Below the pieces are notes generated by a model, which searched no databases, was not told the DNA's origin, and was given only the letters and a program-made list of their open reading frames with translations. Of a stretch of DNA of 64,000 bases, positions 8,956 through 11,997 are shown in pieces. How positions within the stretch are numbered: the first letter of the stretch is position 1; each line of letters begins with the position of its first letter. The stretch spans positions 1 to 64,000 of the forward strand of contig CALULJ010000005.1 of assembly GCA_944321445.1 (NCBI GenBank), in the 5' to 3' direction. The position numbers and the translations under genes are program-made. This DNA is from an uncultured Collinsella sp. GTDB taxonomy: Bacteria; Actinomycetota; Coriobacteriia; Coriobacteriales; Coriobacteriaceae.

Positions 8956-9030
8956 TGGCTCCTCGAGTAGGACTCGAACCTACAACAACGCGGTTAACAG
9001 CCGCGGGCTCTACCATTGAGCTATCGAGGA
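8956..9030 (-). tRNA. tRNA-Asn (GTT), copy 1
   Basis: On the - strand the gene reads from TCCTCGATAGCTCAATGG to TACTCGAGGAGCCA. The 7-bp acceptor stem TCCTCGA/TCGAGGA is perfect, the anticodon loop CTGTTAA carries GTT, the T-loop is GGTTCGAGTCC, and the 3' CCA is encoded. It is a near-identical twin of the copy at 9193-9267. A promoter lies just upstream (9059-9086) and a terminator just downstream. Confidence 0.96.
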
Positions 9031-9192: not shown

Positions 9193-9267
9193 TGGCTCCT
9201 CGAGTAGGACTCGAACCTACAACAACGCGGTTAACAGCCGCGGGCTCTACCATTGAGCTATCGAGGA
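9193..9267 (-). tRNA. tRNA-Asn (GTT), copy 2
   Basis: Same 75-base sequence as copy 1 with encoded CCA: acceptor TCCTCGA/TCGAGGA, anticodon GTT, standard T-arm. It has its own promoter (9295-9322) and terminator (9155-9184), so the two are independent transcription units rather than one tRNA operon. Confidence 0.96.
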
Positions 9268-9488: not shown

Positions 9489-9809
9489 TTGCTTGCGTTT
9501 ATGAAGAGAGTTTCCGAGGATACGGAGCTCAGGGCGCAGGTCGATGGCCTCAAGGGTCTCGGGCCTGAGGACATGGCCGCTCGCGCCGCTGCGATTGCCC
9601 AAGATGCGGGCTTCGAGCTTTCGTCCGAGGATTTCATGGCTGAATTCGATGAACCGGGTGCATGCGAACTCGATGAGCGCGAGCTTTCTGCTGTCGGCGG
9701 CGGGGAAGGCGGCCATGCGGCGGAAGGCTGCATATGTGTCATCTCCGGCGTACATGGTGATTCCATCTACTACTGCGTTTGCCTTGCCGGCGGCCAGGGA
9801 ACGCTCTAG
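9489..9809 (+). CDS. Nif11-type leader peptide, putative RiPP precursor
   Basis: The 106-residue product looks like a Nif11-class leader fused to a short core peptide. Residues 1-60 match the leader pattern (FMKRVSEDTELRAQV..., AAIAQDAGFELSSEDF). This is followed by an acidic stretch and ELSAVGGG, a double-glycine-type cleavage site near residue 72. The roughly 35-residue core is Gly-rich and has two CxC motifs (CIC near 81 and CVC near 95). TTG 9489 is the first conventional start, but its ribosome site is distant. An ATT at 9477 sits six bases after GGGGAG and would add INDT, giving a more typical leader start. No LanM, YcaO or peptidase-transporter gene is visible nearby; the next gene is KamA-like. 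Confidence 0.72.
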   Translation: MLAFMKRVSEDTELRAQVDGLKGLGPEDMAARAAAIAQDAGFELSSEDFMAEFDEPGACELDERELSAVGGGEGGHAAEGCICVISGVHGDSIYYCVCLAGGQGTL

Positions 9810-10065: not shown

Positions 10066-11157
10066 ATGAGTCGTTGGCAGAAACTTCTGGATGAAAGCTA
10101 TCGCACCCTATCTGACCTGAAAGAGCCTCTGGGGCTCAGCGACGAGCGCTATGCCGAGCTCGCTCCCTTCGAGGAGCGCTATCCTGTGCTCGTTACCCCG
10201 TACTACCTGCGGCTCATGAACAAGCTCGACGCGGACGACCCCATCAAGAAGATGATCGTGCCCGACCTGACCCTTCCGGCCGCCATCGACGCCAAGGCGC
10301 AGGAGAACACCGAGTCGGTGATACAGGGCGGTCAGCACAAGTACCAGAAGTCGGTGCTCATCATCTCCAACAACCATGCCCTCGGCTACGCGCGCCACTG
10401 CTATCGTCGCGACTTCGCGCGTCTCGATGAGGACGAGGCGTCGCTCCGTATCCCCAAGCTCGCGGAGTACATCGGCGACCATCCCGAGATCGATAACATC
10501 TCGGTGTCCGGCGGCGATGCGTTCCTGAACTCCAACGATCGCATCGGCGAGTACCTCAAGGCGTTCGCGTTCCTGCCGAACGTGGACTACATCCGCTTCA
10601 CCACGAGCGTGCCCGCAACCTTCCCGCAGCGCATCACCGAGGACGACGGCGAGCTGCTGAAGCTCCTGTCGCGCTACGCGAAGGCAAAGGCCATCATCAT
10701 CGTCACGCAGTTCAACCATCCGCGCGAGATCACCGAGGACGCCTACACCGCGGTGCGCCTGCTGCGCGAGGCGGGCTGCACGGTGCGCAACGAGGGCGTG
10801 CTGCTGCGCGGCGTGAACGATGACGCCGAGACGCTGCGCGAGCTCATGACGGGGCTCGTGTCCATCGGCGTGGTGCCGTACTACCTGTACCAGTGCCGCG
10901 TTCCCGTTGGGTTCGAGGACCATCTGCAGGTCCCGCTCGCCGAGGGCATCCGCATCGTCGGCGACGCGAAGGCGCAGATGAGCGGCATGGCCAACAGCTT
11001 CCGCTACATCATGAGCCACCGTTTGGGCAAGGTGCAGATGGTCGGCTTCATCGACGACGGTCGTGCCGCCTTCAAGGTGCACAGCGCCCGCGACGAGAAG
11101 TACCAGGGCCGCATCTTCTTCGAGCAGCTCGCCGAAGATCAGGTCTGGCTCGACTAG
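10066..11157 (+). CDS. KamA (lysine 2,3-aminomutase)-like protein lacking the radical-SAM cysteine motif
   Basis: Over its 363 residues this follows KamA/EpmB radical-SAM aminomutases: YQKSVLIISNN..., SGGDAFLNSND (the GGD motif), RITEDD, QFNHPREIT, LLRGVNDD and YYLYQCRVPVGF. In KamA the CxxxCxxC motif binds the [4Fe-4S]-SAM cluster. Here the aligned positions read A105-LGY-A109-RH-C112: two of three cysteines are alanine (codons gcc and gcg), while the flanking RHCYRR is kept. Classical radical-SAM chemistry is therefore unlikely. ATG 10066 was chosen because GAGG precedes it by 7 bases. No frame disruption is seen, so the gene looks maintained. The function is unknown; a role with the upstream Nif11 peptide is speculative. 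Confidence 0.85.
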   Translation: MSRWQKLLDESYRTLSDLKEPLGLSDERYAELAPFEERYPVLVTPYYLRLMNKLDADDPIKKMIVPDLTLPAAIDAKAQENTESVIQGGQHKYQKSVLIISNNHALGYARHCYRRDFARLDEDEASLRIPKLAEYIGDHPEIDNISVSGGDAFLNSNDRIGEYLKAFAFLPNVDYIRFTTSVPATFPQRITEDDGELLKLLSRYAKAKAIIIVTQFNHPREITEDAYTAVRLLREAGCTVRNEGVLLRGVNDDAETLRELMTGLVSIGVVPYYLYQCRVPVGFEDHLQVPLAEGIRIVGDAKAQMSGMANSFRYIMSHRLGKVQMVGFIDDGRAAFKVHSARDEKYQGRIFFEQLAEDQVWLD

Positions 11158-11347: not shown

Positions 11348-11521
11348 ATGGTCAAGAGGAAAGAGGTGACCGATTTTCTCAGGAGAGGCGGCCTTTGGCC
11401 CACTGGCGGAACGAACCATGAGCACTGGACAGACGGAGTTCATTTCACGCAGGTTCCGCGCCACAAAGAGATATCCAATCAGCTTTTCGAGAAGATTAAG
11501 AAACAAGCGGGATTGAAATAG
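11348..11521 (+). CDS. hicA: HicA-type mRNA interferase toxin
   Basis: This 57-residue basic protein (start MVKRKEVTDFLRRGG) has the HicA dsRBD-like pattern, with the catalytic-histidine region GGTNHEHWTDG near residues 20-30 and a basic tail (EKIKKQAGLK). HicA cleaves mRNA and tmRNA when free of its antitoxin. ATG 11348 is preceded by AAAGGAGCGC. The gene is followed after 41 bases by the HicB-like antitoxin, the usual toxin-first order. The residue context differs from the textbook GSHH, so the assignment rests on size, motif and partner. Confidence 0.75.
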   Translation: MVKRKEVTDFLRRGGLWPTGGTNHEHWTDGVHFTQVPRHKEISNQLFEKIKKQAGLK

Positions 11522-11562: not shown

Positions 11563-11997
11563 ATGTTCGTTATGCAGGAGTTTGAGCTGTTCGAGGAGGA
11601 CGGATTCGTCCTCGCACTCCCGTTTGATCTCGAAGGCGGAACGCAAGGGGAATCGTTCGAGGACGCGGCAGAGATGGCTGCGGACTGGCTCAAGTGCACG
11701 GCGGAGGACTGGTTGATTCACGGCGTCGAGCCTCCTAAGCCTACCTTCGGCAACGAGCCAGAGCGTGGGGGTCGCGTCATTCTCATCGGCGTTGACGTAT
11801 CGCTTGCCTCCATTCCTACGGTGTCTGCGAGTGAGGCCGCTACCAGGCTCGGTGTTTCCCGGCCACGCGTGACGCAAATGCTCGCCTCCGGTGCCCTTGT
11901 CGGCTGGCGCGATGGCCGCAACACCCGCGTGACCATCGACTCAGTCAACGCCCGGCTGGAGTATCGCGATTACGAAAAGGAAATGGCCACGGCATAG
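11563..11997 (+). CDS. hicB: HicB-type antitoxin with C-terminal DNA-binding domain
   Basis: The 144-residue product has a HicB partial RNase H-like fold at the N-terminus (FELFEEDGFVLALPFDLEGG, then ESFEDAAEMAADWL, near 6-46). From about residue 86 it has an excisionase-like helix-turn-helix (VSASEAATRLGVSRPRVTQMLASGAL) followed by a wing (GWRDGRNTRVTIDSV). HicB antitoxins neutralise HicA and repress their own promoter. GAGGAG lies 9 bases before ATG 11563. The HTH resembles the MerR/Xis type used by several hicB families. It pairs with the upstream 57-residue toxin gene. Confidence 0.8.
   Translation: MFVMQEFELFEEDGFVLALPFDLEGGTQGESFEDAAEMAADWLKCTAEDWLIHGVEPPKPTFGNEPERGGRVILIGVDVSLASIPTVSASEAATRLGVSRPRVTQMLASGALVGWRDGRNTRVTIDSVNARLEYRDYEKEMATA

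Follow-up and report, generated by a model that had tools for sequence, protein, structure and literature searches.

A KamA-like protein lacking the radical-SAM cluster motif is kept in a clade of Collinsella

The locus and the family of the protein

The window, a stretch of 64,000 nucleotides from an uncultured Collinsella species (contig CALULJ010000005.1), carries an open reading frame of 363 amino acids, counted from its ATG, that encodes a KamA-like protein without the radical-SAM cluster motif (Table 1). Two tRNA-Asn(gtt) genes with near-identical repeated surroundings lie between rpoD and this gene, and it is likely that the repeat region is a spot for insertions and assembly breaks. 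Upstream of the gene there is a Nif11-type RiPP precursor (TIGR03798, 34.4 bits, cut-off 32.3); it has a double-glycine-like site, and its core contains Cys. A second Nif11-type precursor above the cut-off is found on another contig of the same genome (G000), in which no LanC-like protein was found. Downstream, a small HicA-like frame (PF07927, E 2.5e-4, below gathering) and the frame after it, with an excisionase-type HTH, are probably a HicAB-like toxin-antitoxin pair. Links between the KamA-like gene and these neighbours were considered and rejected. The Nif11 precursor is present in none of the seven sister loci (tblastn E <= 0.01; at the G039 locus the contig extends only 389 bases ahead of the gene), and the HicA/HicB-like pair is absent from all seven. 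Nor did the neighbours of related genes at 18 loci outside Collinsella give a functional hint: shared families reach at most 9 of the 18 loci, and the commonest resembles a general transporter ATPase by eye.

Table 1. Features of the window and related genes. Positions refer to the window unless a contig or locus is named.
Feature	Position	Strand	Remark
tRNA-Asn(gtt)	8956-9030	-	
tRNA-Asn(gtt)	9193-9267	-	
Nif11-type RiPP precursor	9489-9806	+	TIGR03798
KamA-like frame without cluster motif	10066-11157	+	open frame, homology
H91-K92-Y93	10336-10344	+	kept; KamA H111-R112-Y113
Ala105 (GCC)	10378-10380	+	replaces cluster Cys1 (KamA C125)
Ala109 (GCG)	10390-10392	+	replaces cluster Cys2 (KamA C129)
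Cys112 (TGC)	10399-10401	+	sole remaining cluster cysteine (KamA C132); kept 8/8
Arg114	10405-10407	+	kept; KamA R134
Asp116	10411-10413	+	Arg in all 44 radical-type sequences (KamA R136); Asp 8/8
Gly149-Gly150-Asp151 (GGD)	10510-10518	+	kept
Ser181	10606-10608	+	replaces Arg (KamA R202); Ser 8/8
Glu243	10792-10794	+	Gln in all 44 radical-type sequences (KamA Q258); Glu 8/8
Arg278	10897-10899	+	KamA D293 position (side-chain specificity); common to radical-type near relatives
Lys322	11029-11031	+	aligns with GGGK lysine of canonical KamA-like proteins; kept 8/8
HicA-like small frame	11348-11521	+	PF07927
Excisionase-type HTH frame	11563-11997	+	
Second Nif11-type precursor	G000:C33:7559-7795		another contig of the window's genome
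Canonical short KamA-family protein, Collinsella	L028:156-1250	+	Arg/Ser at D293/D330 positions
Canonical short KamA-family protein, Collinsella	L029:2839-3927	-	Arg/Ser at D293/D330 positions
Canonical short KamA-family protein, Collinsella	L027:161-1255	+	Arg/Ser at D293/D330 positions

The protein is homologous over its full length to KamA of Clostridium subterminale (PDB 2a5h, E 3.9e-54, 29–31% identity). It also matches the models of lysine 2,3-aminomutase (TIGR03820, E 1.3e-54) and of KamA-family radical-SAM proteins (TIGR00238, E 1.5e-54), in both cases with scores below the curated cut-offs (185.6 bits vs 525.4 and 185.2 vs 199.2, respectively). Scores are likewise too low for glutamate 2,3-aminomutase (TIGR04368, 180.8 vs 650), for EpmB, the enzyme of EF-P beta-lysylation (TIGR03821, 155.7 vs 369.3), and for the radical SAM superfamily (PF04055, 22.5 bits vs gathering 29.5). 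Where the two types occur in one genome (G041), the canonical copy passes TIGR00238 with 263.7 bits and the cluster-less copy reaches 174.7. The nearest relatives are short KamA-family proteins (TIGR00238) from Spirochaetaceae, Clostridia and Collinsella with 38–53% identity. They are similar in length to the window protein and share its Arg278/Ser317 side-chain signature, but all of them have CxxxCxxC.

Structure prediction, proposed in the sequence-only reading of this DNA, shows that the KamA fold is kept: the AlphaFold2 model has a pLDDT of 87.2 and superimposes on 2a5h with Z 34.2 and rmsd 2.9 over 328 residues. The low-confidence cluster loop was considered as a sign of decay and rejected, since residues 111–120 have a mean pLDDT of 55 in the window protein and 54 in a canonical Spirochaetaceae protein. 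The models thus fail to separate the canonical and cluster-less types.

Cluster motif and active site

In the alignment to 2a5h the cluster motif of the window protein is ALGYARHC, i.e. AxxxAxxC, with Ala105, Ala109 and Cys112 at the positions of C125, C129 and C132 of KamA. This alignment and the full-length homology bear out the claim that we are dealing with a KamA homologue in which two cluster cysteines have become alanine, and a count gives three cysteines in the whole protein, as had been stated. None of the eight cluster-less copies found in Collinsella (see below) has the complete motif. It reads TxxxSxxC in four, AxxxAxxC in two, TxxxAxxC in one and CxxxAxxC in one, the last being the copy of C. 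ihumii (G014), which retains Cys1 and Cys3. Specifically, Cys2 is lost in 8/8, Cys1 in 7/8, and Cys3 is kept in 8/8.

Other active-site positions can be read against KamA, in which K337 holds PLP, R112 and Y113 are on the PLP side, R134 binds the substrate carboxylate, and D293 and D330 contact the lysine side chain. We take Lys322 to be at the position of the PLP lysine K337 and Arg114 at that of the carboxylate-binding R134, with H91-K92-Y93 on the PLP side. Lys322, near the C-terminus, is invariant in 44 radical-type sequences and in all eight cluster-less ones. The fold, the position of the PLP lysine, GGD and the R134 position are shared with KamA. What differs, besides the two cysteines, are R136, R202 and Q258, all replaced, and D293/D330, where the window protein has Arg278/Ser317. 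From their place in the fold, the positions of Arg116, Arg181 and Gln243 (window numbering) would all lie on the radical-SAM side.

The 44 radical-type relatives have 31 invariant positions. All eight cluster-less proteins retain 25 of these, including H91, Y93, R110, C112, R114, G149-G150-D151, Y273, Q276, G321 and K322. The six altered positions are Y46 (1/8), the loop residue E80 (6/8), C105, C109, R116 (Asp in 8/8) and Q243 (Glu in 8/8). A less strict criterion, conservation in 27 near relatives, gives 101 positions. Of the 16 that fall in the cluster loop 96–119, 12 are changed, as compared to 26 of the 85 outside it (Fisher p 0.0014, with loop bounds set after the list had been inspected). 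Replacements fixed in the clade are T102N, F113Y, R116D, L146S, R181S, V184A, Q243E, F275Y and I325M. To judge from these alignments, the loss is targeted. It is the roles of the KamA residues that let us say that the PLP and substrate side has been kept and the SAM and cluster side has not. The sequence-only reading, according to which everything typical of the family is retained, needs a small correction for Arg116 (now Asp), Arg181 (Ser) and Gln243 (Glu).

Position 317 is Ser in three, Gly in four and Ala in one of the cluster-less copies. As Arg278 and Ser317 are also present in near radical-type relatives, lysine is unlikely to have been the ancestral substrate; an acidic amino acid may have served instead. 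Glutamate 2,3-aminomutase has Lys at the D293 position, so that a basic residue is common to both, although the window protein scores far below the cut-off of that family and lacks the cluster motif. The canonical Collinsella copies (Table 1) are possibly acidic-amino-acid 2,3-aminomutases.

Distribution, history and selection

The cluster-less gene is present in 8 of the 43 Collinsella genomes searched (the window's own included) and absent from all 22 further genomes of the family (65 in total, each species represented by one genome). The contig scan was pattern-based and reaches close relatives only; therefore cluster-less KamA proteins may occur elsewhere. CxxxCxxC is found in all other copies examined: at 18 and 23 loci outside Collinsella, in three canonical Collinsella copies and in eight further KamA-family copies from the source genomes of relatives, where one more match was not included. 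The 23 loci were drawn from 31 matching non-Collinsella genomes (the remaining eight gave fragments or weak matches, and some second matches were left out); in five of the 23 the motif was missed by the regular expression and shown by alignment. None of six candidate stretches on viral contigs encodes a relative, and none of the papers listed in literature searches describes a cluster-less KamA in its title or abstract opening.

All eight genes share one locus, rpoD/tRNA-Asn/pyrR, and where contigs permit a view they sit between rpoD/tRNA-Asn and the pyr genes. In two Collinsella genomes without the gene (G013 and G017) a pyrR match follows rpoD inside the 1.5 kb examined; the other genomes examined have no pyrR match inside the same distance. 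In G035, G040 and G041 a canonical copy (CAMYCRHC) precedes the cluster-less one by about 250 bp, both on one strand, and no terminator-like site was found between the two in the one pair scanned. Six Spirochaetes proteins share 64–69% identity with the canonical copy of G041. G000, G014, G020 and G036 lack a canonical copy. In G000 neither protein search nor HMM found another KamA-family gene, and the TIGR04368 model matches only this one. For G039 the presence of a canonical copy cannot be judged, as the contig ends 389 bases upstream of the gene. No remnant of a canonical copy was accepted in five regions upstream of lone cluster-less genes (best tblastn E 0.52, best blastn E 0.024).

The eight cluster-less proteins form one clade (support 100/100), so that the clade search suggested earlier did find a group sharing the cysteine loss, with the exact AxxxAxxC confined to two members. 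The clade lies within a larger group, supported at 97/92, to which the canonical copies of Collinsella and proteins of Spirochaetaceae also belong. It has a long branch at its base (0.69 changes per column); its first branch is C. ihumii. The canonical and cluster-less Collinsella groups are sisters at 78/74 only, and the AU test leaves two alternatives standing (p-AU 0.21 and 0.18). The eight host genomes are likewise one clade in an RpoD tree of those 30 of the 42 searched genomes that were fetched as loci (96/90).

Because a canonical copy lies about 250 bp upstream in three of the eight genomes, the cluster-less protein is most likely a tandem-duplicate paralogue. A single acquisition would then have come first, and the gene would have been duplicated in tandem close to where the clade begins. 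Cys2 would have been lost first and Cys1 afterwards, an order consistent with the position of C. ihumii as first branch, still with Cys1. The canonical copy would finally have been lost in most species and the cluster-less one retained. It is important to note that the duplication is not firmly shown: the sister support is modest and the alternative trees stand, which counts against the explanation we prefer below.

All eight frames are open, with no internal stops. NG86 estimates of dN/dS, a method that understates dS where dS is high, are 0.113 (window and G020), 0.184, 0.170, 0.060 (G035 and G041) and 0.143 (G035 and G040) for close cluster-less pairs and 0.231, 0.296 and 0.393 for distant ones. 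Canonical copies give 0.045 and 0.105, and the neighbours rpoD, pyrB and dnaG range from 0 to 0.162 in three genome pairs. The cluster-less gene is clearly constrained, somewhat less than its canonical twin.

Possible roles of the cluster-less protein

Loss of the cluster cysteines with the PLP and amino-acid site kept under selection suggests a new, non-radical job. On balance we favour the explanation that the protein, paralogous to a PLP-dependent radical-SAM aminomutase of the KamA type, no longer carries out radical chemistry and is kept for another role. Judged by its residues, it is probably a pseudo-radical-SAM protein in which binding of PLP and of an amino acid has been preserved and whose function is non-radical. 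The barrel would retain PLP on Lys322 and bind an amino acid as aldimine, with Arg114 holding its carboxylate and Arg278 probably an acidic side chain. The former SAM/cluster pocket would be more acidic (R116D, Q243E, R181S) and would no longer bind SAM or Fe-S. Such a protein could be a non-radical PLP enzyme or a PLP/amino-acid-binding protein, a sensor or carrier. More tentatively, we suggest that a radical PLP aminomutase gave rise to a PLP enzyme without radical chemistry, or to an amino-acid sensor, when the SAM/cluster pocket was dismantled and refitted with fixed polar or acidic residues (N102, Y113, D116, S146, T179, S181, E243), the PLP/amino-acid site being kept. The gene is present in all eight sampled species of the clade; if this suggestion is right, it has persisted beyond its radical parent in four or more of these. 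Some observations count against our preferred explanation. PLP and ligand binding is read from residues by their roles in KamA, GGD and Cys112 are retained though a SAM-free protein would not need them, and the C. ihumii copy still has Cys1 and Cys3.

The last two observations would suit a protein in which radical chemistry persists, the cluster being held by Cys112 and other ligands. We consider this very improbable: seven of the eight copies have Ala, Thr or Ser in place of both other ligands, and R116 and Q243, otherwise invariant, are altered in all. Equally improbable is a decaying pseudogene or a sequencing error. The long basal branch would fit decay, but eight open frames and dN/dS of 0.06–0.18 in close pairs do not, and an error is hard to reconcile with the same or similar replacement in eight genome assemblies. 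The sequence-only reading had argued from the intact frame against decay, and the shared loss and purifying selection across eight genomes bear this out; the finding that would have overturned it, CxxxCxxC in all relatives and hence a recent mutation or error, is not what we see. Its further suggestion, that this may be a binding or PLP-type protein, is compatible with retention of the PLP lysine and of residues on the substrate side. It did not note that sister genomes carry a canonical copy in tandem, or that the radical site has additional changes (R116D, R181S, Q243E).

An inactive partner subunit, one that would regulate or stabilise the canonical aminomutase within a mixed oligomer, has more in its favour and is still unlikely. 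KamA is an oligomer, and the two genes adjoin on one strand in three of the eight genomes, with no terminator-like site seen in the pair scanned. However, the cluster-less gene is intact in the four genomes that have neither a canonical copy nor an upstream trace of one; in G039 the contig breaks off just upstream of the gene. Dph1-Dph2, a pair of radical-SAM subunits, offers a likeness as regards the idea of two paralogous subunits. According to PMC11048331, Dph1-Dph2 has clusters on both subunits, unlike the cluster-less Collinsella protein. Slightly less likely again is that the fold is kept for a function that involves neither PLP nor amino acids, e.g. as a structural or regulatory protein. 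The new residues fixed across the clade are compatible with such a job, but it would not need the PLP-side and substrate-side residues that are invariant in 8/8.

If the protein is, as we prefer, a paralogue that has left radical chemistry, these Collinsella species hold a natural experiment in which an enzyme with two cofactors, Fe-S/SAM and PLP, has lost the site of one and kept that of the other. Living intermediates are at hand (CxxxAxxC in C. ihumii, TxxxAxxC, TxxxSxxC and AxxxAxxC), and in three genomes the intact parent adjoins. This opens to experiment the question of which tasks a radical-SAM PLP barrel can perform in the absence of radicals. The finding is also a warning that annotation of KamA-like aminomutases in gut Collinsella need not mean production of beta-amino acids.
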